From Bacteroidales bacterium (GTDB taxonomy: Bacteria; Bacteroidota; Bacteroidia; Bacteroidales; UBA932), in the NCBI GenBank assembly GCA_017477465.1, contig JAFUVU010000027.1, positions 1 to 64,000 of the forward strand: a stretch of 64,000 nucleotides of DNA, read 5' to 3'. Shown one piece after another: positions 449 to 64,000 of the stretch (position 1 is the first letter of the stretch; every line of letters begins with the position of its first letter). A model generated the notes under the pieces. That model worked only from the letters and a program-made list of their open reading frames with translations. It made no database searches and was not told where the DNA came from. The position numbers and the translations under genes are program-made.

Positions 449-1039
449 ATGGCGTACAAGAAAATAGAAGAATACGATCAGGAGACCACAAAAGCGATTG
501 CATCGCACATACAGGCCATCCTGGGGCTGCTTGGAGAAGACCCCTCCCGTGAGGGTCTGCAAAAGACGCCGGAGCGCGTGGCCAAGGCCATGCAGTTCCT
601 TACACAGGGCTATTTCCAGGACGGGGAAGCAATCGTCAAGAGCGCCCTGTTTCAGGAGCCTTACAACCACATGGTGATTGTCAAGGACATCGAGCTCTTC
701 TCCCTGTGCGAGCATCACATGCTCCCCTTCATCGGCAAGGCTCATGTGGCATATATCCCTAAAGGGGAAATTACCGGTCTTAGCAAAATAGCCCGCGTCG
801 TTGAAACTTATGCCCGCCGTCTGCAGGTTCAGGAGCGCCTCACTGAGCAAATCAGGGACTGCATCCAGGAGTCGCTGCACCCGCTGGGCGTCGCCGTGGT
901 CATCGAAGCCATGCACACCTGCATGTCAATGCGCGGAGTGCAAAAATCCAACGCCGTCACCACCACGTCGGCCTTCTCGGGCATATTCCTCAGAAGCGAC
1001 AAAACCAGGAACGAATTCCTGGAATTGATAGGCCGATAA
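449..1039 (+). CDS. folE: GTP cyclohydrolase I
   Basis: FolE converts GTP to 7,8-dihydroneopterin triphosphate, the first step of folate or queuosine-precursor synthesis, in the cytoplasm. The 196-residue protein has the usual bacterial length. Zinc ligands are visible: C87 and H90 in LCEHHMLPF and C158 in MHTCMSMRG, corresponding to the E. coli Cys110/His113/Cys181 set. This is the zinc-dependent type IA enzyme. It appears monocistronic, with its own -7 box at 403-410, and converges on htpG with a terminator between them. No folate neighbours lie within the window. Confidence 0.96.
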
Positions 1040-1042
1040 AAA

Positions 1043-1076
1043 AAGGGCCGACCAAAGCAATCTTCGACCGGCCCTT
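1043..1076 (-). terminator. Terminator between folE and htpG
   Basis: Arms AAGGGCCG (1043-1050) and CGGCCCTT (1069-1076) pair perfectly. Read on the minus strand the stem runs into TTTTTTT, so it is a good intrinsic terminator for htpG. On the plus strand the T-run is weak. Confidence 0.75.
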
Positions 1077-1081
1077 GAATC

Positions 1082-3082
1082 TTATTTCAGGTAAGCGTCG
1101 GCAACCACCTTCTGGCTGCGGGCGATGAAATCCGAAAGGGCTTTTCCTTTAAGCATGCCGTTGGACAGGAGTGCCAGATCCACTATCTGATGCAGCAGAT
1201 CGTTCTTTTCGGCGAATGCTTCCACATCGCTCCTGTGAGCCTTGCGGACAGCTTCGCGCGCTTCCCTGGCCTTGGTTTTCTCCTCATCGGAGGCGTCTGA
1301 AGGGGCTTCGGCGGGCAGTTCTGCCTGCGGCGCAACATCCGATTGTTTGGCCGACCAGATCTTTTCCACCAGAGGGTTCTGCATGTTCACGGTAATATTG
1401 TAGCTTTCGGGCATGGAACCGTAGAAGTTCATTCCGCCGCCCAGGGCGCTCATTTCGCGGTAACGGCGCATGAACTCGTTCTGGGTGATAAGGATTGGAG
1501 CGGCATCGGCACCTAAATTGTCGCCTTGGACAAAGTAGTCGTTGCCGGCGGGCATCACGGCCTTGAAGAGGTTCTCCAGGTCGTAACGTTCGTCTTCCTT
1601 CATTTCCAACTTCATCTTTTCCTCTTTGGGGATGAGGTTTTCGATGGCGTCGGAGTCCACGCGGGCAAAACGCACGTCCGTAAGCTTCTGCTCCAGCAGA
1701 TTCACATAGTGCGAATCAAGCTCGCAGTCCATCAGGAGCACATCGTAACCTTTGTCCTTGGCTGCCTGGATATAGGCGTACTGGTCATCGACCTTTGTGG
1801 CGTACAGATAAACCAGCTTCTTATCCTTGTCGGTCTGGGCCGATTCGACAGCGGCCTTGTATTCATCGAAGCTGAAGTACTTCCCGTCAGTGTTCTTGAG
1901 CAGGGCGAACTTGAGAGCGCGCTCGCAGAACTTCTCGTCGGAGAGCATGCCGTATTCGATAAAGAGCTTAAGATTGTCCCACTTGGCTTCCAGCTGGGCG
2001 CGTTCGTCCTTGAAAATGCCTTCCAGCCTGTCGGCGACCTTCTTGGTGATGTAGGTGGATATCTTCTTCACGGAAGCATCGGCCTGAAGATAACTGCGGG
2101 AGACATTCAGCGGGATGTCCGGGGAATCGATGACGCCATGCAGGAGTGTCATAAAGTCAGGGACGATGTTGTCCACATGGTCGGTGACGAACATCTGATT
2201 GCAGTAGAGGGAAATCTTATTGCGCTCCACGGCCACGCGGTCCTTCAACTTGGGGAAATACAGAATGCCCGTGAGGTTGAAAGGATAGTCCACATTGAGG
2301 TGAATGTAGAAAAGAGGCTCCTCATTCATGGGATACAAGGTGCGGTAGAAGTTCAGGTAATCCTCTTCCTTGAGCTCCGACGGTGCCTTGGTCCAAAGCG
2401 GCTCTACAGAGTTGATAATCTTGTCTTTATCGGTATCGACGTACTTTCCGTCCTTCCATTCCTGCTCCTTGCCGAATACGATGGGAACGGGCATGAACTT
2501 GCAGTACTTGCCCAGAAGGCCCTCGATGCGGGATTTATCGGCGTACTCTTTGGAATCATCGTCCAGATAAAGGGTGATGACAGTTCCCCGCTCCTTTTTG
2601 TCGATGGGCTCCATCTCATAGGCCGGCGAGCCGTCGCAGCTCCATTTAACGGCCTGCGCGCCCTCTTTCCAGGAAAGCGTCTCGATGGTCACCTTCTTGG
2701 ATACCATGAAAGCGCTGTAGAATCCAAGGCCGAAATGGCCGATGATATTGCCGATCTGGTCCTTGTACTTTTCCAGGAATTCTCCTGCCGATGAGAAGGC
2801 TATCTGGTTGATGTATTTGTCAACTTCCTCCTCGGTCATGCCGATGCCGTTGTCGATGATTTTGAGGGTGCCGGCCTTTTCGTCCAGTTCGATATGAACT
2901 TGGAGCTGACCAAGTTCTTCTTTGTATTCACCGCTGGCCGCCAGTGCCTTCATTTTCTGGGTAGCATCAACCGCGTTGGCTACAAGTTCGCGGAGGAAAA
3001 TCTCATGATCACTGTAAAGAAACTGTTTGATAACAGGGAATATATTCTCTGTAGTTACACCAATTTGTCCTTTGTTTGCCAT
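1082..3082 (-). CDS. htpG: Molecular chaperone HtpG (Hsp90 family)
   Basis: HtpG is the cytoplasmic bacterial Hsp90, an ATP-dependent dimeric chaperone. The 666-residue product shows the GHKL ATPase signatures: ELVANAVDA near residue 34, DNGIGM near residue 98, and GHFGLGFYSAFMVS near residue 117. The middle and C-terminal dimerisation regions follow. It is somewhat longer than E. coli HtpG (624), as is usual in Bacteroidota. The N-terminal sequence GQIGVTTENIFPVIKQFLYS is typical, supporting the start. A terminator-like hairpin sits at 3113-3139, only about 25 bases before the start codon, leaving little room for a promoter between them. Confidence 0.97.
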   Translation of the reverse strand: MANKGQIGVTTENIFPVIKQFLYSDHEIFLRELVANAVDATQKMKALAASGEYKEELGQLQVHIELDEKAGTLKIIDNGIGMTEEEVDKYINQIAFSSAGEFLEKYKDQIGNIIGHFGLGFYSAFMVSKKVTIETLSWKEGAQAVKWSCDGSPAYEMEPIDKKERGTVITLYLDDDSKEYADKSRIEGLLGKYCKFMPVPIVFGKEQEWKDGKYVDTDKDKIINSVEPLWTKAPSELKEEDYLNFYRTLYPMNEEPLFYIHLNVDYPFNLTGILYFPKLKDRVAVERNKISLYCNQMFVTDHVDNIVPDFMTLLHGVIDSPDIPLNVSRSYLQADASVKKISTYITKKVADRLEGIFKDERAQLEAKWDNLKLFIEYGMLSDEKFCERALKFALLKNTDGKYFSFDEYKAAVESAQTDKDKKLVYLYATKVDDQYAYIQAAKDKGYDVLLMDCELDSHYVNLLEQKLTDVRFARVDSDAIENLIPKEEKMKLEMKEDERYDLENLFKAVMPAGNDYFVQGDNLGADAAPILITQNEFMRRYREMSALGGGMNFYGSMPESYNITVNMQNPLVEKIWSAKQSDVAPQAELPAEAPSDASDEEKTKAREAREAVRKAHRSDVEAFAEKNDLLHQIVDLALLSNGMLKGKALSDFIARSQKVVADAYLK

Positions 3083-3112
3083 AATATCGTTAGATTTTTT
3101 TCTTCAATAAAA

Positions 3113-3139
3113 AACCGGCCCTTGTGTCAAGGACCGGTT
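3113..3139 (-). terminator. Hairpin plus T-run just upstream of htpG
   Basis: Arms 3113-3123 and 3129-3139 pair over 11 positions with one mismatch around GTGTC. On the minus strand the stem is followed by TTTTTTATT. It could end acyl-CoA synthetase transcription or act as an attenuator in the htpG leader. Confidence 0.7.
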
Positions 3140-3177
3140 CAAAATAGTCAAATTCTAAGCCAATCAGCTTCTGGCTG

Positions 3178-3314
3178 ACAAATTGGCAGGCGCATAGCCC
3201 CAAACCTATGGCCACCCTCGGCCGTATTAGAGGGAGGGGCCCGTTCCCGAAGGGAATGGGAGGGACGAGGAGCGAAGCGACGAAGGGTTTGGGGCTATGC
3301 GCCTGCCAATTTGT
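3178..3314. repeat. Perfect 29-bp inverted repeat with structured centre
   Basis: Positions 3178-3206 are the exact reverse complement of 3286-3314. The 79-base interior contains a second hairpin, CCGTTCCC with GGGAATGG around a GAA loop near 3241-3259 (one G-T pair). The element fills the gap between the acyl-CoA synthetase stop and the htpG terminator and encodes no protein. It could be a MITE- or REP-like element, a structured 3' UTR, or a small RNA; the sequence alone does not decide. Confidence 0.85.
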
Positions 3315-3324
3315 TCAAAGAACT

Positions 3325-4971: not shown

Positions 4972-5001
4972 GATTAGGTATAAAGGTTTCAGTAAAACAT
5001 G

Positions 5002-5009
5002 CAAAGATA
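5002..5009 (-). promoter_or_regulatory. -7 box for the acyl-CoA synthetase gene
   Basis: Minus strand TATCTTTG lies 31 bases before the chosen ATG at 4971. It pairs with the identical plus-strand box at 5031-5038, giving a 9-bp inverted repeat between two divergent promoters. Confidence 0.6.
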
Positions 5010-5030
5010 GCAAATAATTTAGAAAATCCG

Positions 5031-5038
5031 TATCTTTG
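5031..5038 (+). promoter_or_regulatory. -7 box for the aguA operon
   Basis: TATCTTTG followed by C matches the Bacteroidetes -7 consensus, 21 bases before the aguA ATG. Confidence 0.65.
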
Positions 5039-5058
5039 CAGCATAAAGGAAAACGGAT

Positions 5059-6087: not shown

Positions 6088-6093
6088 ATCATT

Positions 6094-8835: not shown

Positions 8836-8836
8836 T

Positions 8837-17243: not shown

Positions 17244-19127
17244 TTAAAGATTTTCCTGCAATTCCAGCCAGCGCATCTCTGCGGCGTCAAGTTCATCTTT
17301 CAGAGTACCGTATCGGGCCGATGCCTGCTGCAACTCGTCCATGCCAAGCATGCCGCTTGACAGTTTTGCTTCAAGATCGGCCTTTTCCGCTTCCAACTGA
17401 GGGAGTTTCTCTTCCAGCGACTTGAGTTCCTGCTGCTCCTTATAGCTTAGCTTGCGCTTTACAGATGCCCGGTCGGAGCCGGGCATGACGGCCTTCCCCA
17501 TTCCGTCATGGCCGACCTGATCGGCCATCTTCTTTGCCCCCTTGGCGTCATGGCCGACCTGATCGGCCATCTTTTTTGCCCCTTTGGCGTCATGGCCGAC
17601 CTGATCGGCCATCTTCTTCTGCTGCGCCTCGTAATCCTTGATGAATGTGCGGTACTCTGTATAATTGCCGACAAAGTCTTTCACTACTCCGTCCCCGCAG
17701 AAGACAAACAGATGATCGACCAGTCTGTCAAGGAAATGGCGGTCGTGCGATACTATGACCAGCGAGCCTTTATACTCCTGCAGATATTCTTCCAGGATTT
17801 CCAGGGTGACTATGTCCAGGTCGTTTGTCGGCTCGTCAAGTACCAGGAAATTAGGCTGTTGCAGAAGGATGGTAAGAAGGTACAGCCTTCTCCTTTCTCC
17901 TCCCGACAGGCGCTCCACAGGGTTCTGAAGCATGTCGTGAGTGAAGAGGAAGCGGCTCAGAAGATGCGTATCGTTTACCGTTTCCAGCACAGTCTGTCCG
18001 GGCTTGAACTGCATGCCCGACTGGTGGTAATAGCCGATTTTCAGGGAATCCCCCAGGTCTATCACACCCTCCAGGCGGCCGCCCATTTCCGGTTTCCACT
18101 GCCCTGTAATAAGGTTTAGGAAGGTTGTTTTGCCTGCAGCATTGCGGCCTACGATTCCAACTTTTTCATAACGCTGGAAGTTGTAGCTGAAATGGTTCAG
18201 GTAGCACTTCCCTTCCCAGAAGAAACTTACGTCCTTGCAGTTGATTACCTTATTTCCAAGATAGGTATTTTTAATCTGCGTCTCCGACAGGTCCACTTTC
18301 TTTTGGATGTAGCTGTCATCGGCCCTTTCCTTTATGTCCCAGAAAGCCTGCTTACGGTATTTTGCCTTGCCCGTGCGGGCGCATGGGCTTGCGTGCATCC
18401 ATTCCAGCTCCCTTCTGTAGATATTGCGGACACGCTCCGTCTCGGCATTGTAATTATCAATCCTTTCCTGTCGTTTTTCCAGGAAATTCATGTAGTCGCC
18501 CTTGTAGATATAGATGCCGCCCCTGTCCATTTCCATGACCGTATTGCATACGCGGTCCAGGAAATAACGGTCGTGAGTTACCATGAAAAGAGTGCATCGG
18601 CTATGCTTCAGATGCGATTCCAGAAACTCGATGGCGTCTATGTCCAGGTGGTTGGTGGGCTCGTCCATTATGTAGAAATCGGCCTCCGAAGCCAGCATCC
18701 TGGTAAGGGCGACGCGCTTGACTTCGCCGCCTGAAAGGTCTCGCATCGGCTTATCCGGATTATCTAGGCCGAACTGAGTAAGAAGCTGATTTACACGCAG
18801 TTCATACTTCCATAGCTGGTCCGTTTCCAGATGGTCGGTCCACTGATGCGAATCGTCCATAATCTGGTCAAAAATGCTCCGGTCCGGATTGTACTTATAC
18901 TCCTGCTCCAGAAAAGCGATTCGTATATCCTTCAGGAACAGCACCTTTCCGCCGCTGTCCGAAGAGTCCTTCCCCGCCAGGATCCTTAGCAGTGAAGTCT
19001 TGCCGGTTCCGTTTGGCGCTATGAGAGCCACCTTGTCCCCCTCATTGATGTTGAAATCAATGTTCTGGAACAAGACCTTAGGGCCATAGCTCTTGGAAAT
19101 ATTCTCAATCTGCAGATAACTTGGCAT
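17244..19127 (-). CDS. ABC-F family ATPase (Uup-like) with internal palindromic repeats
   Basis: The 627-residue protein has two ABC ATPase domains and no membrane segment. Walker A motifs are APNGTGKT (about residue 37) and GRNAAGKT; signatures are DLSGGEVKR and RLSGGERRR; both Walker B regions read DEPTN. A C-terminal charged coiled-coil tail follows, as in Uup-type ABC-F proteins, which act on ribosomes or DNA structures. Between the second ATPase and the tail lie three copies of a 14-residue unit KKMADQVGHDAKGA. The start at 19127 is chosen because a -7 box (19136-19143) covers the earlier ATG. Confidence 0.92.
   Translation of the reverse strand: MPSYLQIENISKSYGPKVLFQNIDFNINEGDKVALIAPNGTGKTSLLRILAGKDSSDSGGKVLFLKDIRIAFLEQEYKYNPDRSIFDQIMDDSHQWTDHLETDQLWKYELRVNQLLTQFGLDNPDKPMRDLSGGEVKRVALTRMLASEADFYIMDEPTNHLDIDAIEFLESHLKHSRCTLFMVTHDRYFLDRVCNTVMEMDRGGIYIYKGDYMNFLEKRQERIDNYNAETERVRNIYRRELEWMHASPCARTGKAKYRKQAFWDIKERADDSYIQKKVDLSETQIKNTYLGNKVINCKDVSFFWEGKCYLNHFSYNFQRYEKVGIVGRNAAGKTTFLNLITGQWKPEMGGRLEGVIDLGDSLKIGYYHQSGMQFKPGQTVLETVNDTHLLSRFLFTHDMLQNPVERLSGGERRRLYLLTILLQQPNFLVLDEPTNDLDIVTLEILEEYLQEYKGSLVIVSHDRHFLDRLVDHLFVFCGDGVVKDFVGNYTEYRTFIKDYEAQQKKMADQVGHDAKGAKKMADQVGHDAKGAKKMADQVGHDGMGKAVMPGSDRASVKRKLSYKEQQELKSLEEKLPQLEAEKADLEAKLSSGMLGMDELQQASARYGTLKDELDAAEMRWLELQENL
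17465..17486. repeat. REP-like palindrome inside the ABC-F gene
   Basis: ATGCCCGG and CCGGGCAT pair around six bases. It lies in frame in the ABC-F gene, directly before the triplicated palindrome. Confidence 0.7.
17508..17612. repeat. Three in-frame copies of a 21-bp palindrome, 42-bp period
   Basis: ATGGCCGA-CCTGA-TCGGCCAT occurs exactly at 17508-17528, 17550-17570 and 17592-17612. The 42-bp period keeps the frame, adding 14 residues per copy to the ABC-F linker. The 8-bp arms are perfect. The form is that of REP palindromes that have entered or expanded within coding sequence. Confidence 0.9.
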
Positions 19128-19135
19128 AACAAGCA

Positions 19136-19143
19136 CAAAGGTA
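19136..19143 (-). promoter_or_regulatory. -7 box for the ABC-F gene
   Basis: Minus strand TACCTTTG, 8 bases before the chosen ATG, implying a very short or absent leader. Confidence 0.6.
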
Positions 19144-31775: not shown

Positions 31776-33506
31776 TTAGTACCATTTATCGTTTTGAGTA
31801 AGGCCGGCTTTCTCTACTTCCGAACGAGGTACGGGCCAGTGCAAGTACTGATCTCCACCCCAAATATAATCATAAATAGACGAACCCCAACATTGTTGCA
31901 GGCCATTTCCTTCTTTAAACTTGTCATCTTTCCAGCTGCCCCAGCGCAATTCTTCGAAATACAGCTGGTTCTCACCGGCCAGTTCCCACTTTTTCTCCCG
32001 GCGGATACGCTCGCGCATATTCTCCTGACTGCTTACTTGTGTAGCGTCGTTGGAATTCAAAGCCTTTGCTCCTGCCCTGGAACGCACCTGGTTCACAAAA
32101 GGAACAGCTTCCAGATATCGGCCCTGCTCGTTGATGGCTTCGGCAAGGGAAAGGAGGACATCGGCATAACGGAAGACAGGCATATCTACCGGGTTGTAGG
32201 AGATGTTTTTATACTGGACTCCTTCGGCCACGAATTTGCGAACAAGATAAATCATCTGCGTCGTGTTATAGGCCTTTAGGTCGAAGTTCGGCGTGGCGTC
32301 GGAACGATACGGGAAGCGCATGGTGTAGGTTTCCGCCGTTCCGGTCGAGCCGCCAAGATATGTGCTGTAAGGAAGGATGAATGTAGCGGCCAGCCTTGGA
32401 TCACGGTTCTCGTAGGCCTTTTTTATGCGGGCTTCATTGTTCGCACTGTCGTACAGGGACATATCGGCACCGGCCGATGACAGCGTCAGCTTCTCATTCT
32501 CCGTAAGGGAATTCCTGAAGAAATAAGCGGCGCGTGCCTTAGGCGAGAGAGCCGTATAACCGGGAATCACATCTTCCCAGTCGAAGGCTTCTCCGTCCAG
32601 GGTCTCATAGCTGTCGATGAAGTTGGGACCGGCCACAATTCTGTTGTTGCCATATCCGGCAGTGTTGAAGTTGCCGTAGATGAAGCTGAGGACGTTTCCT
32701 TTTTCGGCCGTTTCAACCATCTGCACCGAGAAGATCATCTCGTCGCAACGCTCGTTCTTTTCCTTGAACAGATCGGCATAACTGCCTCTGAACAGGGAAT
32801 AGCCGCAGTCGCCTACGGACCTGAAGTCCTTCTCCGCTTTCTCATATTCCTTGAGCCACATGTACGCCTTGCCGCGAAGTACGTATGCCGCACCGCGCGT
32901 GACGCGTCCATAATCGGCCGATGAAGCCTCAATCTTGTCGGGAATCACCTCGCAGTCAATACAATCAGTGCAATCCTTGATCACCAGTGCCCATACATCT
33001 TCCTCACTGCTGCGCTGACGGGTGTATTCTTTAGGCGAGAGGTTCTCCAGATAAATCGGCACGCCGCCCCAGAGACAGTTGAGCTTGTAATAATGCCAGG
33101 CCCTGAGGAATTTGCACTCTGCAATCCGGCGTGCCTTGGTCTCTTCGTCCATATCAGGGACCTTGCCGATATTGTTTATGACATCGTTAGCCCGGTTGAC
33201 ACCTTCGAAAAAGCGTTTCCAGTATTCCAGAACGGTGCCGTTGTTGCTCTGAATTCGCCCTTGCATATATGAATAAGGGCTCAACGCATCCAATACCGAA
33301 GAATAAGCGTCCCAGTTGATTCGGTCATAGTTATTATAATCATAGGCCAGATTGCTGTACACACCGGCAACGACATTTTCTGCAAGGACTGCGGAAGTGA
33401 ATACATTGTCGGAAGTGATTTCTGAAACCGAACTCCGGTCCAGGAAGTCGTTACATGAAGACAGTACGGCGACTGTCGCAAGCAGGATTATTCCACTTTT
33501 TTTCAT
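31776..33506 (-). CDS. SusD/RagB-family outer-membrane lipoprotein
   Basis: The 576-residue lipoprotein (VAVLSSCNDFLDR) has the SusD-like TPR-containing fold: N-terminal SusD segment with LAENVVAGVYSNLA and RWFFEGVNRANDVI-like helix, and the C-terminal RagB region with MPVFRYADVLLSLAEA and EAVPFVNQVRSRAG, all characteristic. It caps the partner SusC transporter on the cell surface and binds the glycan. The gene follows susC by 12 bases. Confidence 0.95.
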   Translation of the reverse strand: MKKSGIILLATVAVLSSCNDFLDRSSVSEITSDNVFTSAVLAENVVAGVYSNLAYDYNNYDRINWDAYSSVLDALSPYSYMQGRIQSNNGTVLEYWKRFFEGVNRANDVINNIGKVPDMDEETKARRIAECKFLRAWHYYKLNCLWGGVPIYLENLSPKEYTRQRSSEEDVWALVIKDCTDCIDCEVIPDKIEASSADYGRVTRGAAYVLRGKAYMWLKEYEKAEKDFRSVGDCGYSLFRGSYADLFKEKNERCDEMIFSVQMVETAEKGNVLSFIYGNFNTAGYGNNRIVAGPNFIDSYETLDGEAFDWEDVIPGYTALSPKARAAYFFRNSLTENEKLTLSSAGADMSLYDSANNEARIKKAYENRDPRLAATFILPYSTYLGGSTGTAETYTMRFPYRSDATPNFDLKAYNTTQMIYLVRKFVAEGVQYKNISYNPVDMPVFRYADVLLSLAEAINEQGRYLEAVPFVNQVRSRAGAKALNSNDATQVSSQENMRERIRREKKWELAGENQLYFEELRWGSWKDDKFKEGNGLQQCWGSSIYDYIWGGDQYLHWPVPRSEVEKAGLTQNDKWY

Positions 33507-48472: not shown

Positions 48473-48494
48473 TCGGAGTTTTTTTGTACATTCG
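48464..48494 (+). promoter_or_regulatory. Promoter of the HTCS gene
   Basis: TTTG at 48464-48467, 19-base spacer, then TACATTCG (48487-48494), a near-consensus -7 box. The ATG follows at 48499. It would allow HTCS expression apart from the PUL genes upstream. Confidence 0.6.
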
Positions 48495-48498
48495 TTCG

Positions 48499-51400
48499 AT
48501 GATGAGGCGAACGATGCTAATATGGTTAATGATACTTCTTCCGGCCATCGCCATGGCGGAAGAAGTTCCGTCTTTCAATGCTTTCACGACATTAAACAAC
48601 CGGACCATCTCCGGCAGGGGCGGTATAACGGCCCTGTTTGAAGATTCCCGAGGATATATCTGGGCAGGGTCTTCAATCGGCCTGGAAAGATTTGACAGGA
48701 CAGGAAGCATCCATTATGGCAACAAGTCCCTCGGGATGGACTTCGGACAGGTCCACGCATTGGAAGAAGACCAGGACGGAAATATCTGGATAGGAACGGA
48801 TGCCGGCGTTTCCATCTACGATTACCGCATGGACCGGATCAGGGCCTTCAAATGCACAACGGCCGACGGCGTCTCCATCCACAACAAGACCAACAACATC
48901 CTCCGGGGACCGGATGGCCGGATTTGGCTGTCGGCAAACAACCAGGGGCTGTTTTCTTACGATCCGGCGCAGGACAAGCTCACGAATTATTTCATGCAGG
49001 GCGATTCGCTGACCCTCCCGGCCGGCATCCGCCGCTTCGCTTTCGACAAAGGCGGCGGTTTCTGGATCTCCCTGTATTATGCCGGATTCTACCACGCCAA
49101 CGCCACATTGGACGCCATCGAGGAAGTCAAAGTCCAGGAAAGCGAGTATTTTCAAGGCGACAACATCGACGGTATCGTCTGTTCTCCCCGGCAAAGTCAT
49201 ATCGTATATCTGGCATCGGCCCGGCACGGCCTCTGCGAAGTCGATACCAAGAACGGCACTGTCCGTGAAATTATCCCGTCCGACGGGCTGTCCATCCCCA
49301 CCTGCACCTTTCTGGAGAGCAATAGCGTAATCTGGATGGCCACCAGTCATGGTGTATTCCGCTATGACTTCAGCAGTGATACAAGCACCCAAATCTCCTC
49401 AGAAAAAAAACAAGCGTTCTCCCTTCACGACGACAACGTCAGCACGCTTATCATCGACAATGAAGGCGGCCTTTGGATTGGTGCTTCCAACGGAAACATC
49501 GACTATTCCGGCCCCTGCCAGCAAATATTCCATGCCATCACCGATTTCGCCGGCATTCCCAACAACAGTTTCACAGTGAACGGATTTGCCGAAGACGAGA
49601 ACGGCAAGCTTTGGATAACCACAAACAACGCGGGACTGTTCACCCTGGATGAAGACACCGCAGACCGCGCCTTCCCGGCGGCACAACTAAACCAGACCCT
49701 CGCGTCGCCTGTTTTTCAAGGGCAGAACCTATATCTGAGAACCGACAACGGTATGCTTCGTTACCGTAACGGACACATCTCCCCGATATACATTGCCCAG
49801 TCGGCAAGAGACAGCCGTGTTTTTGAAATATTCAAAATGTCTGACGGGCAGATACTCGCCACCAATACACAGGGACTGTTCCGCCTCGCCTCTTCCCCGC
49901 AGGCCCTGATACAGGAAGAAGAGTTCAGCGGCATTTTCATCAGACACCTGGCGGAAGACCGCAATGGAGTTCTCTGGCTAGCCACCGATGTCTCAGGCGT
50001 TTACACATACGATCTGGGCAGCAGAACAATCACCGGCCATTACATGAATGCCGAAGACGGATTCCGGAAAATTGCCAAGATTTTGGTGGACAGTCACAAT
50101 CGGATATGGGCATCCGCTTACAATACCGGACTCTATTGCTTCGACCCAGACAAAAAGCAGTTCGTCAGGGAGACATCTTTTCCGAGCAATCATATAATCT
50201 ATTCTTTTGTAGAAGACGACAACGGACGGTTCTGGCTGGCAACGGACGAAGGACTGGTATGCTGGAACCCTCAGACAAAAGTCAGCTTCTGCTATGGAAC
50301 AAGGGAAGGGCTCCCGGTCAAAGCATTCTGGGGCGACGCTTATAAAACCCGGAACGGAGACCTTTGCTTCGGCATCGACGGCGGTTTCCTCCGCTTCAAT
50401 CCAAACCGTATCAAGCATGACAGCAAAAATACATCTATCCGCCTGTCCAAGCTCACCGTCGGCGAAACGGACATCACCCCAATGGACGGGAGCGGCATTC
50501 TCGAGGAAAATATCGCGCTCACCAAGTCATTGACGCTGTCGTCCAGGCAGAATTCCTTCGGCTTTTCACTGTCAATCCTACGCGGCTCCTTGGAAGACAA
50601 TCATATCCAGTGCATGCTGTATCCCTACGAAAAACAGTGGCGGGATATCTCATACGACGGATTGGTCTATTATTACAACATCCCACCCGGAGAGTACAAA
50701 TTCAGGGCACGTACAGTCGGAGAGAATTTGGAGACCCATGCCACCAGTATGCCGCTCAAGATTCGAATCAGGCTTCCATTCTGGCTGTCTCCACTTGCAA
50801 TAATACTATATTTAAGCATGCTTGCCATTGTGGTCACCTTTATTTCGCGCACGCTGGTATCGAAGGCAAGAAGGAAAGAACAAGACAAACAGGAAGAAAT
50901 ACAAAAGCTTCAGGAGCAGCAGACTTATGAAGAAAAAATGCGTTTCTTCTCCAACGTAATCCACGAAATCAAGACCCCTCTAACGCTGATTCAGACGCCG
51001 CTGGAGCACATAATCAGTTCCAACAAAGTGAAGGACCGTCAGTTGCAAAAAGACCTGTCCGTCATTGGAAACGGTGCCGACTATATCAATACCCTGGTTA
51101 AAGAGCTGCTGGATTTCATCAGCGTGCAGCAGAACGGTTACGTACTGGAAAAGAAGAATCTGGACCTTCGTGAATCCCTCCGGCTGTCCTTGTCCAACTT
51201 CTCAGAACTGGCAAGGAAGCGTGGCCTGACAATCAAATTTGACGGGCCTGATACGCCGGTCTGGATTGCCGCCGACGCCTCCGCCCTGCAAAAAATACTG
51301 AATAACCTGATTCACAACGCTGTCAAATATGCAGCGTCCTATATCCATGTTATTCTGGCGCAGGAAGACGACAAGGTCGTTGTCCGTTTCGCAAATGACG

Positions 51401-52410
51401 GAGAACCCATTCCGGAAAAAATGCGGACACAGATTTTCAAGCCTTTTGTCAAATATACTCCTCCATCCCAGGAATCCAACAGTTTTGGCATCGGCCTTTC
51501 TCTGGCCACGACACTCGCCGCGTTACACGACGGGTCCCTCACCCTTTCTCCAAAGACCGACTGCACCGAATTCGTTTTGTCGTTTCCTGTGAACCTGATT
51601 CCCGACACAAGGCAAGACAAGGATATCACCCCAGTCCGCGACCGTTCCGTCCCTACCCTAATGGTCGTGGAAGACAATCGAACGCTCTCAGAATATCTGC
51701 AAAACGCGTTAAAAGACAAATTCCAAATCGTATGCGCGCAAAGCGGAGAAGAAGCCCTTTCCATAATACGTCGGATGGGAGGAGCCGACCTTATCCTCAC
51801 GGACATCAACTTGCCCGGAATGGACGGCATCCAGCTTTGCCGGGAAATCAAAGCCTTGCGTACAACCCAAGAGATTCCCGTCATAACCATTTCCGCCATT
51901 ACGGATTCAGCGACAAAGTCACGCGCCATGACAGCAGGGGCCGCCATATTCGTCGAAAAGCCTTTCTCCTTAGATTTCTTGATTTCCTGCGTCCGTTCTG
52001 TCCTCAACAAGGAGCAGCAAGTAAGGGATAATGCCCTGGATACGTTCCTTCTCGCGACATCCCAGGCCAAACCAAGAAGCGGGGACGATGATTTCACCCG
52101 GCGTCTGGACGAAATAATCGACAGGAATATGGGAGATCCGGATTTTGGCAGCGCGCAGCTGGAGCAGGCCATGTCAATGAGCAGAAGCTCGCTCTCCAGA
52201 AAAATCAAAGCGGCTATGAACACCTCTCCCGGCGAATATATACGCCGTCGCCGGCTGGCCGTAGCAGCCCGCATGCTGGAGAATTCCTCCGTCAGAATCA
52301 GCGAGGTTTGCGATGCGGTCGGCTTTTCAACTGCTTCATATTTCTCAAAATGCTTCAAAGACACCTACGGCGTCCTACCGGCACAATACCAGAAAATGAA
52401 AAATCAATGA
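48499..52410 (+). CDS. Hybrid two-component system sensor/regulator (HTCS)
   Basis: The 1303-residue one-protein system should sense a glycan breakdown product in the periplasm and activate the PUL. Domain order: signal or anchor segment, two regulator-propeller blades (GRGGITALFEDSRGYIWAGS, NGRFWLATDEG), a Y_Y_Y domain, a membrane segment near 761-785 (PLAIILYLSMLAIVV), HisKA with the phospho-His in FFSNVIHEIKTPLT (~821), HATPase, a receiver with Asp in ILTDINLPGMDG (~1101), and an AraC-type HTH from ~1205. A TTG 15 bases earlier is in frame, but the ATG at 48499 fits the promoter better. Confidence 0.96.
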   Translation: MMRRTMLIWLMILLPAIAMAEEVPSFNAFTTLNNRTISGRGGITALFEDSRGYIWAGSSIGLERFDRTGSIHYGNKSLGMDFGQVHALEEDQDGNIWIGTDAGVSIYDYRMDRIRAFKCTTADGVSIHNKTNNILRGPDGRIWLSANNQGLFSYDPAQDKLTNYFMQGDSLTLPAGIRRFAFDKGGGFWISLYYAGFYHANATLDAIEEVKVQESEYFQGDNIDGIVCSPRQSHIVYLASARHGLCEVDTKNGTVREIIPSDGLSIPTCTFLESNSVIWMATSHGVFRYDFSSDTSTQISSEKKQAFSLHDDNVSTLIIDNEGGLWIGASNGNIDYSGPCQQIFHAITDFAGIPNNSFTVNGFAEDENGKLWITTNNAGLFTLDEDTADRAFPAAQLNQTLASPVFQGQNLYLRTDNGMLRYRNGHISPIYIAQSARDSRVFEIFKMSDGQILATNTQGLFRLASSPQALIQEEEFSGIFIRHLAEDRNGVLWLATDVSGVYTYDLGSRTITGHYMNAEDGFRKIAKILVDSHNRIWASAYNTGLYCFDPDKKQFVRETSFPSNHIIYSFVEDDNGRFWLATDEGLVCWNPQTKVSFCYGTREGLPVKAFWGDAYKTRNGDLCFGIDGGFLRFNPNRIKHDSKNTSIRLSKLTVGETDITPMDGSGILEENIALTKSLTLSSRQNSFGFSLSILRGSLEDNHIQCMLYPYEKQWRDISYDGLVYYYNIPPGEYKFRARTVGENLETHATSMPLKIRIRLPFWLSPLAIILYLSMLAIVVTFISRTLVSKARRKEQDKQEEIQKLQEQQTYEEKMRFFSNVIHEIKTPLTLIQTPLEHIISSNKVKDRQLQKDLSVIGNGADYINTLVKELLDFISVQQNGYVLEKKNLDLRESLRLSLSNFSELARKRGLTIKFDGPDTPVWIAADASALQKILNNLIHNAVKYAASYIHVILAQEDDKVVVRFANDGEPIPEKMRTQIFKPFVKYTPPSQESNSFGIGLSLATTLAALHDGSLTLSPKTDCTEFVLSFPVNLIPDTRQDKDITPVRDRSVPTLMVVEDNRTLSEYLQNALKDKFQIVCAQSGEEALSIIRRMGGADLILTDINLPGMDGIQLCREIKALRTTQEIPVITISAITDSATKSRAMTAGAAIFVEKPFSLDFLISCVRSVLNKEQQVRDNALDTFLLATSQAKPRSGDDDFTRRLDEIIDRNMGDPDFGSAQLEQAMSMSRSSLSRKIKAAMNTSPGEYIRRRRLAVAARMLENSSVRISEVCDAVGFSTASYFSKCFKDTYGVLPAQYQKMKNQ

Positions 52411-53516
52411 AACATATCCTTTCCCTCCTGTTAATCACGCTAAGCCTGCCGCTTGCTGCAACTAATGTCACGGTAGCCCCATTCGGAACCTTGTCCACAG
52501 GCGAGGCAGCCCACCTTTTCACCCTTACCAACCGGAGCGGCGCTTATATGACCCTTACAGACTACGGCGCCCGCATCGTCAGCATTCACGTCCCGGACCG
52601 TACGGGAAAGCTTGACGACGTGATCGTAGGATATGGGGATTTGGCTTCGTTCGAGAAAAAAGACCGCTTCATGGGCTGTACCATCGGCCGATATGCCAAT
52701 AGAATCGACCATGCAAGCTTCGAGCTGGACGGAAAGCGTTACGAGCTGGATGCAAACGAGCATTATGGCGGAGAACCCGTCCAATGCCATAGCGGACGCA
52801 AGGGAATCGACCGCTTTTTATGGGCCTATGAGCTCTTGCCTGGCGGCGTGCGCTTTACACGGACCAGTCCCGACGGAGAAGGCGGCTTTCCAGGAAACCT
52901 TGACCTCAGCGTCAGTTTTTACTGGACCGAGGACAACGTCTGCAGGATTGAATACAAAGCAGTTACCGATGCGCCGACAGTGGTCAGCCTGTCCAATCAC
53001 TCCTATTTTAACCTCAAGGGTGCCGACGGCGGCTATGTCATGGACCATCGGCTCACAGTAAGGGCCGATTCATGCATTCAGAACAACACGCATCTGTGTC
53101 CGGACTTAGTGCTTCCGGTGGAAGGAACTCCTTTCGATTTCCGCACCCCGCACCGCGTGGACTATCGTATCGACCAAAGTTCCCGCCAACTGGAAATCAT
53201 GCACGGAATGTCGGCCTGCTGGGTGCTGGACGGATATGACGGTTCCCTGCGACAGGTTGCAAGCTTATATGAGCCCCGAAGCGGACGCGTCGTAGAAACC
53301 TGGACAACGGAGCCGGCGCTGCTTACATACACGGCGCGCTTTTTCCATGAGGGCATGATAGGGAAATACGGGCCGCTGGAAAAATTCGGAGGGATGCTTC
53401 TTGAGACCATCCATTTCCCGGATTCTCCCAACCAGCCGCGCTTCCCCTCAACCGTTCTCAGGCCGGGGGAAACTTATTCTTCAATAACGGAGTGGCATTT
53501 CTCCGTCTTACCCTAA
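52407..53516 (+). CDS. galM: Aldose 1-epimerase, exported
   Basis: GalM interconverts alpha and beta anomers of aldoses. The 369-residue protein has a signal peptide (MKHILSLLLITLSLPLAA) and family motifs CTIGRYANRI, VSLSNHSYFNLKG (His) and GTPFDFRTPHRVD. Export suggests it acts on sugars released by the PUL glycosidases. Its ATG overlaps the HTCS stop by four bases, and its last 9 bases overlap the convergent lpdA gene. The longer open frame upstream is inside the HTCS gene and is not used. Confidence 0.92.
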   Translation: MKHILSLLLITLSLPLAATNVTVAPFGTLSTGEAAHLFTLTNRSGAYMTLTDYGARIVSIHVPDRTGKLDDVIVGYGDLASFEKKDRFMGCTIGRYANRIDHASFELDGKRYELDANEHYGGEPVQCHSGRKGIDRFLWAYELLPGGVRFTRTSPDGEGGFPGNLDLSVSFYWTEDNVCRIEYKAVTDAPTVVSLSNHSYFNLKGADGGYVMDHRLTVRADSCIQNNTHLCPDLVLPVEGTPFDFRTPHRVDYRIDQSSRQLEIMHGMSACWVLDGYDGSLRQVASLYEPRSGRVVETWTTEPALLTYTARFFHEGMIGKYGPLEKFGGMLLETIHFPDSPNQPRFPSTVLRPGETYSSITEWHFSVLP

Positions 53517-58623: not shown

Positions 58624-58625
58624 CT

Positions 58626-59210: not shown

Positions 59211-59266
59211 TGTTTGTTTTTGTTTAAAATGTGTTACTCAGTGCGATTTTTCACGCACCCCATTGC

Positions 59267-59290: not shown

Positions 59291-59298
59291 TAAGCGCG

Positions 59299-59329
59299 CA
59301 AAGGTAATCAAAATTTTTGGAATTGCAAA
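59299..59329 (-). promoter_or_regulatory. Promoter of rplY-pth
   Basis: On the minus strand TTTG (59326-59329), 19-base spacer, TACCTTTG (59299-59306). Confidence 0.8.
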
Positions 59330-59340
59330 GAGTCTTACAA

Positions 59341-60096: not shown

Positions 60097-60105
60097 TATA
60101 CTAAA

Positions 60106-61011
60106 TTATTTAACTGACATTACTGCCGATGCAATTGAATTGAGCTTGACGCTTACCGAGTCGGCCCTTGAGGCAAGAATGCAAGGGACCTTGGTGCCCA
60201 CGAGGAAACCGGCCTGCTGGACGTCTTTTGCAAGCTTTGAATTTGTTTTCCAGAATACGTTGGCGCTTTCGATGTTGGGGAAGAGCAGGCAATCCGCATC
60301 ACCGGCCACGGGGCTCTTAAGCTTCTTGATTTCAACGGATTCCTGGTCGATGGCTACATCCAGGGCAAGAGGGCCGTCGCCGATGGCCTTGATCTGACCG
60401 CGGTCGCACATTTTTGCGAGCATGGCGCCTTCGATGCAGGCGGGCATTGAGTCGAGCATCTGCTCCGAAGCGGCGATGAAGGCAATCTTAGGCATCGCAA
60501 TACCGAAGCTGCGGGCGACGGAAGTGACGAAGCCTGCCATTTTCACCTTCTGGCGGAAGTCCGGTGCAGGAATCACGGCCATGTCGGTGATGAAAATAAG
60601 CTTGTGGTAGTTGGGATTCTCAATTACGCCGACGTGGCTGAGCAGGCCCTTTGCGGGCAGCAGGCCGCATTCCTTGTTAAGGATGGCGCGGAGGAATTTG
60701 TCGGTGGAGCAAAGGCCTTTCATGAGAACGTCGCCTTCTCCGTCATGGACCATGCGGACGGCTTCGGCCACTGCTTTAAGTTCGTCTTTTATGTCCACTA
60801 TTTCGAACTTGCCGATATCGATGCGGCATTCTTCGCAAACGCTGGCGATGAGCTCTGAATCGCCTACCAGAGTCACTTTTACAAAGCCCATGTCGGTGGC
60901 CATTGAGGCGGCCTCGATGGTGTGGGAGTCAACGCCCCAGGCGGCAATCATTTTTTTGCAGATGCCTTTTTCCTTAAGCTCCGAGAAGAGCTCTTTAAAA
61001 TTGCTTATCAT
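60106..61011 (-). CDS. ptb: Phosphate acyltransferase (Ptb-like)
   Basis: The 301-residue enzyme belongs to the phosphate acetyl/butyryltransferase family, exchanging CoA and phosphate on an acyl group. DVLMKGLCSTDKFLRAIL and LLSHVGVIENPNYHKLIFITD resemble Ptb more than the longer Pta. Its partner 7 bases upstream, however, is an acetate kinase, so acetyl-CoA or propionyl-CoA may be the real substrate. I start at the ATG at 61011 (MISNFKELF), since the earlier in-frame ATG at 61035 overlaps ackA. Confidence 0.85.
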   Translation of the reverse strand: MISNFKELFSELKEKGICKKMIAAWGVDSHTIEAASMATDMGFVKVTLVGDSELIASVCEECRIDIGKFEIVDIKDELKAVAEAVRMVHDGEGDVLMKGLCSTDKFLRAILNKECGLLPAKGLLSHVGVIENPNYHKLIFITDMAVIPAPDFRQKVKMAGFVTSVARSFGIAMPKIAFIAASEQMLDSMPACIEGAMLAKMCDRGQIKAIGDGPLALDVAIDQESVEIKKLKSPVAGDADCLLFPNIESANVFWKTNSKLAKDVQQAGFLVGTKVPCILASRADSVSVKLNSIASAVMSVK

Positions 61012-61018
61012 ATTGGTT

Positions 61019-62233
61019 TTATTCTTGATTTTCAAGTACTAAATGCATGGTGTCGCGGGCAATCACCAGTTCCTCGTTGGTGCAGATGAGGGCGGCTTTT
61101 ACCTTGGAATCGGCCGTTGTTATTATGGCATCCTCCCCCCAGGCTACGTTGGCTTCGTAGTCCACTTTCAGGCCAAGGTAGGAGAAGTTTTCCAGCACGC
61201 GGCGGCGCAGGCGGGAGTTATGCTCGCCGATGCCTCCGGTGAAGACAATCAGATCCACGCCATTCATAGCCGCTACATACGAGCCGATATTCTTGATGAT
61301 GTCGTAGGTGAACTTCTTGAATACCAGTTTGGCTTTGGGGTCTCCGTTGTTTGCCAGTTCATCCAGCTCGCGGGCGTCGGAAGTCTTGGTGCTTACGCCG
61401 AGGAAACCGGATTTGCGGTTGAGGATGACGGACATCTCGTCGGGAGTTACGCCCAGCTTATTCTCCAGATAAATGACGGCGTTGGCGTCGATATTGCCGA
61501 CGCGGGTGCCCATGATCATACCCTCCAGAGGGCTGAAGCCCATGGACGTATCGACACATTTACCGTTCTGGATTGCGCAGATTGAACTGCCGGCGCCCAG
61601 ATGGCAGGTGATGATTTTGGAATTGTTGATATCCAGGCCTGCGAGCTTTGCGCCGACACCGGCCACAAACTGGTGGGAAGTGCCATGTGCTCCGTAACGG
61701 CGGACGCGGTATTTTTCGTAATACTCGTATGGAAGGCCATACATGTAGGCGTATGCGGGCATGGTCTGATGGAAGGCCGTGTCGAAGGTAACTACCTGAG
61801 GGACGCTGGGAAGCACTTCCTGCATAGCCCTGATACCGAGGAGGTGGGCAGGGTTGTGGAGAGGGGCGAAATCGGCACAGAAGGCGATTTTTTCCAGGAC
61901 GCTTTCATCCACAAGGACGCTGCCGGAGAAGAAGTCGCCGCCTTGCACGATGCGGTGGCCTACTGCTTCAATGTCTTCGAGAGAGCGGAGAACGCCGTTT
62001 TCAGGATTTGTCAAAGCTTTCAGAATCAGTTGCATGCCAACCTTGTGGTCTGCAATGGGGACGTCTGTCACTGTCTTTTCCTTGCCGGCGGGTGCATACT
62101 GAAGAATGCCGGCGGGGAGGCCGATTTTTTCGGCAATGCCTTTTGCGATTACGTCATAGACTTCGTCGCTTTTCATGTCCAGAAGCTGGTACTTGATGGA
62201 CGAACTGCCGCAATTGATAACGAGAATAATCAT
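61019..62233 (-). CDS. ackA: Acetate kinase
   Basis: AckA converts acetyl phosphate and ADP to acetate and ATP. The 404-residue protein has NCGSSSIKYQLL at the start, GHRIVQGGDFFSG, PLHNPAHLLG, TFDTAFHQTMP, RRYGAHGTSHQ and FTGGIGEHNS. Length and motifs separate it from butyrate kinase (~355 residues). It is first in an operon with the phosphate acyltransferase and tpiA, behind a -7 box at 62267-62274, and should be a main ATP source in fermentation. Confidence 0.96.
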   Translation of the reverse strand: MIILVINCGSSSIKYQLLDMKSDEVYDVIAKGIAEKIGLPAGILQYAPAGKEKTVTDVPIADHKVGMQLILKALTNPENGVLRSLEDIEAVGHRIVQGGDFFSGSVLVDESVLEKIAFCADFAPLHNPAHLLGIRAMQEVLPSVPQVVTFDTAFHQTMPAYAYMYGLPYEYYEKYRVRRYGAHGTSHQFVAGVGAKLAGLDINNSKIITCHLGAGSSICAIQNGKCVDTSMGFSPLEGMIMGTRVGNIDANAVIYLENKLGVTPDEMSVILNRKSGFLGVSTKTSDARELDELANNGDPKAKLVFKKFTYDIIKNIGSYVAAMNGVDLIVFTGGIGEHNSRLRRRVLENFSYLGLKVDYEANVAWGEDAIITTADSKVKAALICTNEELVIARDTMHLVLENQE

Positions 62234-62266
62234 ATATCGAATAAATTAATTTTACTTAAGGCCGTG

Positions 62267-62274
62267 CAAAGATA
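62267..62274 (-). promoter_or_regulatory. -7 box for ackA
   Basis: Minus strand TATCTTTG, 33 bases before the start. A degenerate plus-strand box TAATTTCG (62286-62293) may serve the divergent comEC-like gene. Confidence 0.6.
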
Positions 62275-62297
62275 CGAAATTATTACTAATTTCGCAC

Positions 62298-63383
62298 ATG
62301 GCTTGCGAAGGGAAAAGCATAGAGGCGCTATCGATAGTGTTTACGCTGGGAATCGCGATGGGAACGCTCCTGTTCCCGCCGCATTCCACCACGCCCGGAA
62401 GCCTTCTCCTGCCACTAGTCGCCCTCCCCGTCCTCCTTAAGGGACCCATTCTCAATCTGCCGGAGCGCCAGGCTACAGGGATAATACTGCTGACCTATAT
62501 GCTGCTCGGCATGTTCTGCGCTTCCATGGCCGATATTCCCGCGGCGGAGTTCAGTTCGCCGATAGAAGACCTGGCCGCAAAGGCCGTATCCAGACTGCGC
62601 GCTTTTATCGGCTCATTGCCATTCAGCAATGCCGATACTGCGCCGCTGCTGAAGGCGCTCCTGACCGGCGACCGCAGCGGTCTATCGGCCCAGACGGTAG
62701 CCGTATTCCGCGGGAGCGGGGCATCGCACCTTTTGGCTCTGTCGGGCTTACACATCGGCATTATCTATCTGATTTTCGATAAGTTGACTTGGATTGTCGG
62801 GCGCAGCGGGCCTGCCCGTGCAATACGTTTTGGACTCATTGTGAGCGGGGCGCTTTTCTTCACTCTGATGACCGGCGCAGGGCCATCCATCGTACGGGCC
62901 TTCCTGTTCATCCTCATCAACGAGACGCTACGCCTTCTGAATCGGCCCAGAAAAGCCGTCCGGGTGCTGTGCCTGGCACTTTTCATTCAGCTCGTGCTGG
63001 ATCCGTCGGCAATTAAGAGCGTCGGCTTTCAATTGTCTTACCTTGCCATGGCCGGCATTTTCCTGCTGTACCCGCTTCTGGAAAGCTGGTACCCCGGCGG
63101 AAAAAGCTTCAATCCGCTTCGCCGGATATGGCAGGCGGCTGCGCTCAGCATTAGCTGTCAAGTGTTTACCGCTCCCCTCGCCTGGTACCGCTTCCACAGC
63201 TTCCCGCGCTTTTTCCTCATCACCAACCTCCTGGCCAGTCCCCTGACCACAGCCCTCATCGGCGTTGCCGTCTGCACTCTGGCGCTATCCTCCATCGGCC
63301 TGTGCCCCCCTCTCCTCCTGCAAGCCACAGACCTCCTCTCCACCCTCCTCCAAACCACCCTGACAATAATCAGCACCCTCTGA
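62298..63383 (+). CDS. ComEC/Rec2-type membrane channel protein, competence domain only
   Basis: The 361-residue protein is a multi-spanning membrane protein with the ComEC/Rec2 competence-domain signature: LLKALLTGDRSGLSAQTVAVFRGSGASHLLALSGLHIGI near residue 115, and TGAGPSIVRAFLF. ComEC forms the inner-membrane channel for DNA uptake. It lacks the C-terminal metallo-beta-lactamase-like domain and has only a short N-terminal region, so it is about half the size of B. subtilis ComEC; short forms are frequent in Bacteroidota. Whether this strain is naturally competent is unknown. Confidence 0.85.
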   Translation: MACEGKSIEALSIVFTLGIAMGTLLFPPHSTTPGSLLLPLVALPVLLKGPILNLPERQATGIILLTYMLLGMFCASMADIPAAEFSSPIEDLAAKAVSRLRAFIGSLPFSNADTAPLLKALLTGDRSGLSAQTVAVFRGSGASHLLALSGLHIGIIYLIFDKLTWIVGRSGPARAIRFGLIVSGALFFTLMTGAGPSIVRAFLFILINETLRLLNRPRKAVRVLCLALFIQLVLDPSAIKSVGFQLSYLAMAGIFLLYPLLESWYPGGKSFNPLRRIWQAAALSISCQVFTAPLAWYRFHSFPRFFLITNLLASPLTTALIGVAVCTLALSSIGLCPPLLLQATDLLSTLLQTTLTIISTL

Positions 63384-63421
63384 CCCTCGGCACGCAACTC
63401 CCTGACACTCAACAATATCCT

Positions 63422-63456
63422 AAAATCAAGTGTGGCAAAAAGTCACACTTGATTTT
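63422..63456. terminator. Terminator between comEC-like gene and apbE
   Basis: A perfect 13-bp stem (63422-63434 with 63444-63456) with T/A-rich outer ends lies between the convergent genes, suitable for both directions. Confidence 0.75.
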
Positions 63457-63493
63457 CACAAGTCGCTGTGGGATAAGCGGTTACGTGTCGAGG

Positions 63494-64000
63494 TTATTGT
63501 TGGAGGGTGAAGCCTGGGGTGGTCCATTCCGAGAGGGTGCCGTCAGGGAGAGCCGTGATAAGGCAGCCTTCCAGAGAAGGATCTTCGAGGAGGAGTTTCT
63601 GCGCCTCCTCCAGGCCGACGACCATGCACCAGGTGGCCACGGCATCGGCAGTAGCGGCGCTTTGGGCCGATACAACAGTGGCACTGAGAAGGTTATGCTG
63701 CACGGGATAGCCGCTGCGAGGGTCGATGGTGTGCGCATACTTCTTCCCGTCCTTGATATAGAATTTGCGGTAATTGCCGGACGTGACGATCCCGGCGGGC
63801 TTGCCGGAAGACGACCAGATGCCGCTCAGCCCTTCCGAGCCTGCCTCCGCCCCAGCGGGCTGGTCCACCGGGCGGTCGATGCCCACGGCCCAGGGTTTGC
63901 CGGAAGGATTGAGCCCGTCACACCAAATCTCGCCGATATCGACAAGCATATCCTTAATGCCCAGACCGTACAAGTATCGGGCAATAATGTCGCAGCTAAA
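63494..64000 (-). CDS. apbE: FAD:protein FMN transferase (ApbE), partial
   Basis: ApbE attaches FMN covalently to threonine residues of flavoproteins such as Na+-NQR and Rnf subunits, outside the inner membrane. Only the C-terminal 168 residues are in the window; the frame is open at base 64000, so the start lies beyond. Visible are DIIARYLYGLGIKDMLVDIG, KPWAVGIDRP, YAHTIDPRSGYPVQ (metal and FAD site) and the final TATSADAVATW-like segment. No target protein gene is seen nearby. Confidence 0.9.
   Translation of the reverse strand, partial: FSCDIIARYLYGLGIKDMLVDIGEIWCDGLNPSGKPWAVGIDRPVDQPAGAEAGSEGLSGIWSSSGKPAGIVTSGNYRKFYIKDGKKYAHTIDPRSGYPVQHNLLSATVVSAQSAATADAVATWCMVVGLEEAQKLLLEDPSLEGCLITALPDGTLSEWTTPGFTLQQ

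Follow-up and report, generated by a model that had tools for sequence, protein, structure and literature searches.

The locus and its word

We analysed a 64,000-nucleotide stretch of the genome of a gut-type Bacteroidales bacterium (bases 1-64000 of contig 56, hereafter the window; the genome comprises 2.42 Mb in 73 contigs and is 82.5% complete), which contains a Bacteroidales small signal recognition particle RNA. One seven-base word, KGCCGAT (K = G or T), is over-represented in the window and throughout the genome. Its excess goes beyond codon use, extends to all reading frames and both strands, does not differ between the classes of genes tested and is distributed over one clade of relatives. 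The cells appear to contain something that reads the word and preserves it. The copies and the genes of the window referred to below are as follows.

1031..63671, both strands: KGCCGAT word, 157 copies (70 on the forward and 87 on the reverse strand), 2.45 per kb
Window: TGCCGAT/ATCGGCA, part of the KGCCGAT set, 63 copies beside 94 of GGCCGAT/ATCGGCC
32913..32922 and 52683..52692: ATCGGCCGAT, each made up of two overlapping copies, one on either strand
17247..19136, reverse strand: ABC-F-like gene, 630 aa, named from the original prediction and its N-terminus; 7 copies against 1.0 expected
31779..33506, reverse strand: lipoprotein-like gene, 576 aa; 9 copies against 0.8 expected, the largest listed excess among the genes of the window
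48484..52410, forward strand: gene for a 1308-aa protein; 3 copies against 1.8-2.1 expected without enrichment, among the poorest
61019..62233, reverse strand: acetate kinase gene, used as the query for relatives
62298..63383, forward strand: ComEC-like protein, 361 aa, Competence domain only (PF03772, E = 7e-48)

The original prediction, made from the letters of the window, had reported about 90 copies of GGCCGAT or its complement, roughly ten-fold too many, on both strands and in varied reading contexts. This genome-wide over-representation is confirmed. We counted 94 copies of GGCCGAT/ATCGGCC in the window (41 forward, 53 reverse; the first at 1031, the last starting at 63665), where base composition predicts about 9.2, and all six reading frames are enriched (2.4-8.7 times). 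The two palindromes lie exactly where they had been placed, and a comEC-like gene is present as claimed. TGCCGAT had been overlooked, although it is nearly as enriched. The whole genome holds 2961 copies of GGCCGAT (1489 forward, 1472 reverse), and KGCCGAT has a density of 2.2 per kb.

Abundance relative to codon use

Codon preference had been named as a partial cause only, to be checked with a model preserving codons and dinucleotides and with control heptamers; the word survived both. In 100 shuffles of the 45 genes of the window (called with a simple codon-score caller) that preserved proteins, codon counts and codon-junction dinucleotides, the mean was 20.8 copies of GGCCGAT (standard deviation 3.8, highest shuffle 30), against 90 observed, a 4.3-fold excess. 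The same shuffles gave 1.5, 1.5 and 0.6 times for the controls GGCCGAC, GGCCGAA and GGCCGAG, and 3.7, 1.45 and 1.3 times for the first-base variants TGCCGAT, AGCCGAT and CGCCGAT. Codon use accounts for roughly a factor of two out of the ten-fold excess.

We then ranked heptamers in the coding sequence (418 kb) of the window and of 20 further stretches of the same genome (L001-L020), under three nulls of 60 shuffles each. Synonymous codons were shuffled per gene (null 1), with the first base and the first base of the next codon retained (null 2), or with the second base of the next codon retained as well (null 3). GGCCGAT ranks first of all heptamers by z score under each null (632 copies against 128, 136 and 207), and TGCCGAT reaches 410 against 115, 103 and 159. 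AGCCGAT and CGCCGAT lie at 0.9-1.3 times expectation, and GGCCGAC at 1.65, 1.64 and 1.13 times. In 45 kb of noncoding DNA, with expectations from a second-order Markov model, GGCCGAT occurs 43 times against 7.2, TGCCGAT 19 against 7.3 and GGCCGAC 15 against 5.6, and GCCGAT is the top hexamer. Under a maximum-order Markov count of the window, the heptamer is not in excess over its own sub-words.

The choice of individual codons depends on the same context. GAC outnumbers GAT about 2:1, so that codon preference opposes the Ala-Asp reading of the word, yet in Ala-Asp pairs GCC is followed by GAT in 62-64% of cases after T or G, against 33% after A or C. Likewise, for Ser(TCN) before GCM, TCG is chosen in 96% of 428 cases after A and 87% of 178 after G, against 37% after T or C.

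The unit and its copies

To define the unit from synonymous choices alone, we took sites at which six of the seven motif bases match and scored the synonymous choice at the remaining base against expectation. The motif base is favoured over its alternatives at each of the seven positions. All wrong bases at positions 1-5 stand at 0.10-0.48 of expectation; at position 4, for example, C is found at 1162 of 1239 such fixable sites, with A, G and T at 0.12, 0.10 and 0.15. Position 6 (A 2.98, T 0.84, C 0.50, G 0.41) and position 7 (T 2.23, A 0.88, C 0.62, G 0.45) are softer. The profile is nearly flat in low-motif outgroups. The unit is KGCCGAT, with a weaker KGCCGAC. Since every wrong base is depleted at positions 1-5, mutation bias of the single-substitution type cannot explain the pattern, and enrichment in all six frames indicates that the word acts as DNA, not as RNA or protein. 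KGCCGAT itself is not palindromic, and the palindrome ATCGGCCGAT formed by two overlapping inverted copies is found at only 61 places. C is rare directly 3' of the word (0.34 of expectation), which may reflect a general avoidance of GATC.

We next scored the fixable sites copy by copy. In 849 kb of this genome, 82% of 5935 sites are completed, against 43% expected; in a negative control in which the word is absent (G165), 37% of 543 sites are completed, against 38%. When the sites are grouped into eight bins by how far away the nearest other copy lies (1-15 bp in the first, more than 1600 bp in the last), the log odds of completion are 2.1, 1.6, 1.7, 1.9, 1.8, 1.9, 1.65 and 2.1, the last bin holding 16 sites. 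In a second genome, from a neighbouring group (G152), they range from 1.4 to 2.7 and do not rise at long distance. Copies within 100 bp of another (2314 of the 5935 sites) are kept as strongly as isolated ones, and we saw no saturation or diminishing return with neighbouring copies in either genome. The spacing of copies fits a Poisson process. Opposite orientation is mildly in excess among 166 neighbouring pairs at most 60 bp apart (102, against 64 with equal orientation); 11 touch noncoding DNA, and no excess of terminator-like inverted pairs was noticed.

With the leading strand inferred by proxy from guanine-cytosine (GC) skew, the G-rich and C-rich strands show no consistent difference at equal coding orientation (1.74/1.39 and 2.10/2.09 in this genome; 2.03/2.01 and 2.57/2.94 in G152). 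When leading and lagging strands were assigned more crudely, the values were 4.75/3.93 with gene majority as the guide and 4.10/4.56 with skew, and the two differ in sign. We rejected a skew-linked polarity on these counts.

A single multiplier describes the copies per gene (chi-square per degree of freedom 0.79, for the 465 of 659 genes with an expectation above 0.3). Lipoprotein-like genes are enriched 4.2 times and other genes 4.4 times, and the 24 genes below 50% GC, perhaps recent arrivals, carry 8 copies against 4.3 expected before enrichment. In a first sample, comM-, polA-, uvrA-, dnaG- and mutS2-like genes stood near the top in copies; these were named by eye, the comM-like one alone with Pfam support. 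In an independent second sample of 386 kb, genes of at least 150 aa were named, again by eye, from protein fragments before counting. Its 11 genome-maintenance genes hold 41 copies against 9.95 (observed/expected 4.12, against 4.29 elsewhere; permutation p = 0.63), and their plain density is 2.74 against 2.37 per kb (p = 0.22). The maintenance bias suggested by the first sample was dropped, as none appeared in this small blind test.

Relatives and dialects

A search with the acetate kinase gene kept 80 relatives, all Bacteroidales or Bacteroidia records, many with ruminant gut in the title and one labelled Rikenellaceae. On a midpoint-rooted tree of this one gene (supports not examined; L086 dropped as short), one clade holds 45 loci with KGCCGAT at 1.8-6.1 times expectation, except for one of them, a four-copy locus at 8 times. 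Ten intermediate loci lie at 1.3-2.5 times, and the values of 24 outer loci lie on either side of 1, with a maximum of 2.3 that rests on four copies. Pooled outer groups have GGCCGAT and TGCCGAT at 0.5-1.15 times. The comparison with relatives that had been proposed thus places the word at 1.8 times or more in the clade and near 1 outside it. Among 80 genomes, this one and 79 of the same genus, the KGCCGAT/MGCCGAT ratio runs from 0.8 to 5.4; the 10 genomes at 2.5 or more are termed strong-motif genomes below.

Pairs of clade species that are 80-92% identical retain GCC|GAT in full in 0.64 of 915 comparisons after G and 0.58 of 207 after T, against 0.19 of 426 after C. They retain TCG|GCC in 0.91 of 240 comparisons when A precedes it, and in 0.38 of 69 with T, 0.75 of 24 with G and 0.64 of 25 with C in that place. 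ATC|GGC shows no clear context effect in these species pairs, and the low-motif pairs offer only 17, 6 and 40 GCC|GAT comparisons, too few to judge.

The last base varies between lineages. The genome of one relative (G150, the source of locus L032, at which KGCCGAT stands at 2.1 times) holds 4539 copies of KGCCGAA in 2.1 Mb, against 661 to 2267 in 17 other genomes searched. In 365 kb of G150, A (2.1) and T (1.9) are both favoured at the last base and G stands at 0.09, giving KGCCGAW (W = A or T), with GGCCGAA at 525 against 124 and GGCCGAT at 296 against 66. This lineage takes A in addition to T; its dialect is relaxed, not switched. G152 keeps T at the last base (2.65) and extends the word by A (3.2). 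Dialects follow phylogeny, as judged from one dialect lineage (G150) and one single-gene tree.

A second genome-wide word, the palindrome CATATG, is found in a more distant Bacteroidales lineage (L094, L096 and G165; stretches L188-L207), with 353 copies against 104 in G165 (3.4 times) and depleted near-misses. For a survey of other families, 40 of 59 order-level genomes were sampled; 14 of these 40 loci, and 6 of the 80 acetate kinase loci, were too short or had less than 8 kb called as coding. No word exceeded z = 5.7 in the 26 scorable other-family samples, which at 20 kb or less each would miss weaker words. GCCGAT ranks third in two of them (44 against 28 and 45 against 26).

Candidate genes

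We identified a restriction-modification island in this genome (L009:7050-11322) that encodes a BanI-type endonuclease (PF24447, E = 3e-118), a C5 methyltransferase, a 461-aa open reading frame and a Vsr endonuclease; its 4.3 kb hold one KGCCGAT, within the Vsr gene. Vsr is found in 23 of the 80 genomes of the genus and a C5 methyltransferase in 14. Among the ten strong-motif genomes, Vsr is absent from eight (with a partial match in G019) and the C5 methyltransferase family (PF00145) from seven. Three further families (PF01555, PF02384 and PF07669) were searched in 37 strong and weak genomes, and none lies above the cut-off in all ten strong ones. In two strong genomes, G057 (94% complete) and G077 (80%), all four families fall below the cut-off. 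These four families, in genomes that are incomplete, give no support for a conventional methyltransferase shared across the clade, and the methylation or repair motif that the original prediction had offered as one possibility found no backing in gene content.

ComEC is present in 38 of 39 genomes at any motif strength, so that its presence explains nothing. The homologue at 62298-63383 consists of the Competence domain alone, and frames of similar length with this domain occur in most relatives searched.

Interpretation

The genome-wide words known to us to be under selection come mainly from cyanobacteria and a handful of proteobacterial families, and we found no description of such a word in Bacteroidetes in the open library searched, judged by titles and abstract openings. 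Both parallels originally drawn, highly iterated palindrome 1 (HIP1) and uptake sequences, were in our judgement the right ones. KGCCGAT resembles HIP1 (GCGATCGC) and the alternate HIPs of cyanobacteria in being a short, sharp word whose thousands of copies lie in genes as well as in noncoding DNA, and whose place is taken by a different word in some relatives. It differs in that HIPs are mostly palindromic and generally paired with a matching methyltransferase, according to PMC4390886, whereas KGCCGAT is not palindromic and has no common methyltransferase in the four families searched. With the DNA uptake sequences of Neisseriaceae and the uptake signal sequences of Pasteurellaceae it shares a non-palindromic form, presence on both strands, a density in the range of about 1-2.5 copies per kb and lineage variants one or two bases apart. 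It is also the most over-represented word, although not the top heptamer in noncoding DNA alone. Uptake sequences are about 9-12 bases long, against seven here, and are biased to genome-maintenance genes, for example in Neisseria; KGCCGAT differs in showing no such bias in our small test, in its Poisson spacing and in the lack of diminishing return at short distance. Chi sites are likewise non-palindromic, over-represented and species-specific, but KGCCGAT has no consistent strand polarity. By analogy, the word can be regarded as HIP1-like in sharpness and evenness and uptake-like in its non-palindromic form and lineage variants. Inverted close pairs and even spacing of the uptake type are not seen for KGCCGAT, and PMC1939737 disputes both as general features of uptake sequences.

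The reading we prefer, to which we give somewhat less than an even chance, is that KGCCGAT is the site of a sequence-specific DNA-reading factor conserved in the clade, with each copy weakly favoured. The word would then act genome-wide at the level of double-stranded DNA, and its reader might be a repair, recombination or chromosome-organising protein. Each copy would have its own small advantage or conversion bias, such that sites a single synonymous change short of the word would steadily become complete and lost copies would be regained. The force could lie in biased conversion or in weak selection, provided that mutation and drift determine the balance; under mutation-selection balance, per-position log odds of 1.5-2.8 would approximate 2Nes. 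Because copies are favoured irrespective of their neighbours, where an uptake drive would be expected to relax, a factor acting on each copy remains as the candidate.

Several observations weigh against such a factor. We found no reader gene, and no gene whose presence tracks the motif, among the families covered by capped searches of metagenome-assembled genomes. Completion is higher where the non-coding strand carries the word (log odds 2.07 against 1.64; 2.64 against 2.09 in G152). In this genome it is also weaker near both ends of genes, at 0.98 in the last 60 bases and 1.32 in the first 60, against 1.83; in G152 it is weaker at the 5' end only. Several noncoding heptamers (e.g. ATCAAGT) outrank GGCCGAT, probably owing to intergenic repeats. 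The context effect on conservation is weaker for GCC|GAC, although of the same sign (0.51, 0.37 and 0.32 after G, T and C), and the conservation counts come from overlapping species pairs and hence are not independent. Dialects and a non-palindromic form are equally typical of uptake sequences, and a generic repair bias would likewise give one multiplier for all genes.

The word may instead be a DNA uptake sequence, spread by biased uptake and recombination through a surface receptor that prefers DNA with KGCCGAT, as in Neisseriaceae and Pasteurellaceae. We consider this unlikely, if a serious contender. The dialects fit this reading, which the original prediction had offered as one possibility, and a ComEC domain is present. 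The word is equally frequent on both strands at a density near that of kingDUS and has single-base lineage variants, both as described in PMC3630211, and its synonymous copies are conserved between species. The uptake reading is weakened by the failure of ComEC to track the motif, the level of the 11 maintenance genes, the Poisson spacing without noticeable excess of terminator-like inverted pairs, and the lack of a distance effect. In Haemophilus a second uptake sequence within 100 bp gives no gain in uptake, and 23% of sites lie within 100 bp of another (both from PMC7811141). The first point suggests that an uptake drive should relax for close copies, which it does not do here; the second means that the distance argument is not watertight. 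Were the word an uptake sequence, it would be evidence that a major gut lineage, for which we know of no competence data, is naturally transformable.

A HIP1-type word, marked by a methyltransferase and made or kept by methylation-directed mismatch repair (the model of Elhai 2015, PMC4390886), seems to us a rather poor prospect. It would suit a sharp, near-saturating word that is even over genes and changes between lineages, and CATATG, a palindrome with a similar near-miss signature, occurs in the more distant lineage. KGCCGAT is not palindromic, however, PF00145 is missing from most strong genomes and two of them match none of the four families, and that model predicts saturation near one site per kb, of which we saw none. 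A Chi-like site, at which RecBCD or AddAB would switch from destruction to repair with low efficiency per copy, is improbable. A non-palindromic 7-mer with additive copies would fit it, and drift of specificity by point change is natural for Chi, but replication-linked Chi sites are polar and our strand comparison at equal coding orientation is not consistent. Very-short-patch repair or a context mutation bias, in which deaminated 5-methylcytosine repaired by Vsr raises the word, could draw on the island with both enzymes in this genome. It is refuted as a clade-wide cause and retains a very slim chance: both genes are missing from most strong genomes, and T-to-C repair would deplete T variants only, whereas all alternatives are depleted at positions 1-5. 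Plain codon and dipeptide preference, which supplies its factor of two, has practically no chance as the full cause; the word survives the codon nulls, the synonymous profile and the window shuffle, the choices of GAT and TCG shift with context, and noncoding DNA shares the excess.

Beyond the DNA-reading factor itself, genome-wide words might include a third kind besides HIP1 and uptake sequences, with KGCCGAT as its representative; we regard this broader proposal as possible but doubtful. Such a word would be non-palindromic and orientation-free, and kept copy by copy without saturation by a clade-specific Bacteroidales DNA-reading system with drifting last-base specificity; CATATG would be another such word in the more distant lineage. 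KGCCGAT is a strong example from uncultured Bacteroidales of gut and rumen, in which lineage variants occur and dozens of species can be placed on one tree. The word is absent, weak, strong or altered across that tree, so its cause can be sought by comparing gene content with dialect, and the copy-by-copy statistic offers a means to separate uptake from local mechanisms.

Other sequence features

TCCGGA is mildly over-used (mostly about 1.5-2.8 times) in most of the relatives L021-L100, with or without KGCCGAT. In the window and L001-L020, forms of GTMKAC, which we take to be an AccI-type site, are nearly absent (GTAGAC 7 against 145, GTCGAC 6 against 91, GTATAC 5 against 63), and GATC is about 2-3 times too rare in several of its contexts; both scarcities are marks of restriction avoidance. 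Eight candidate CRISPR arrays in 3.8 Mb all proved on reading to be tandem repeats, one of them (L241) apparently coding. Tandem repeats lie at L001:7894-8026, L002:16975-17133, L006:12-142, L012:12873-13019, L132:13186-13520, L166:9875-10112 and L171:11452-11851; their units are mostly palindromic (such as GAGGTGCGG ... CCGCACCTG), and some contain GCCGAT.

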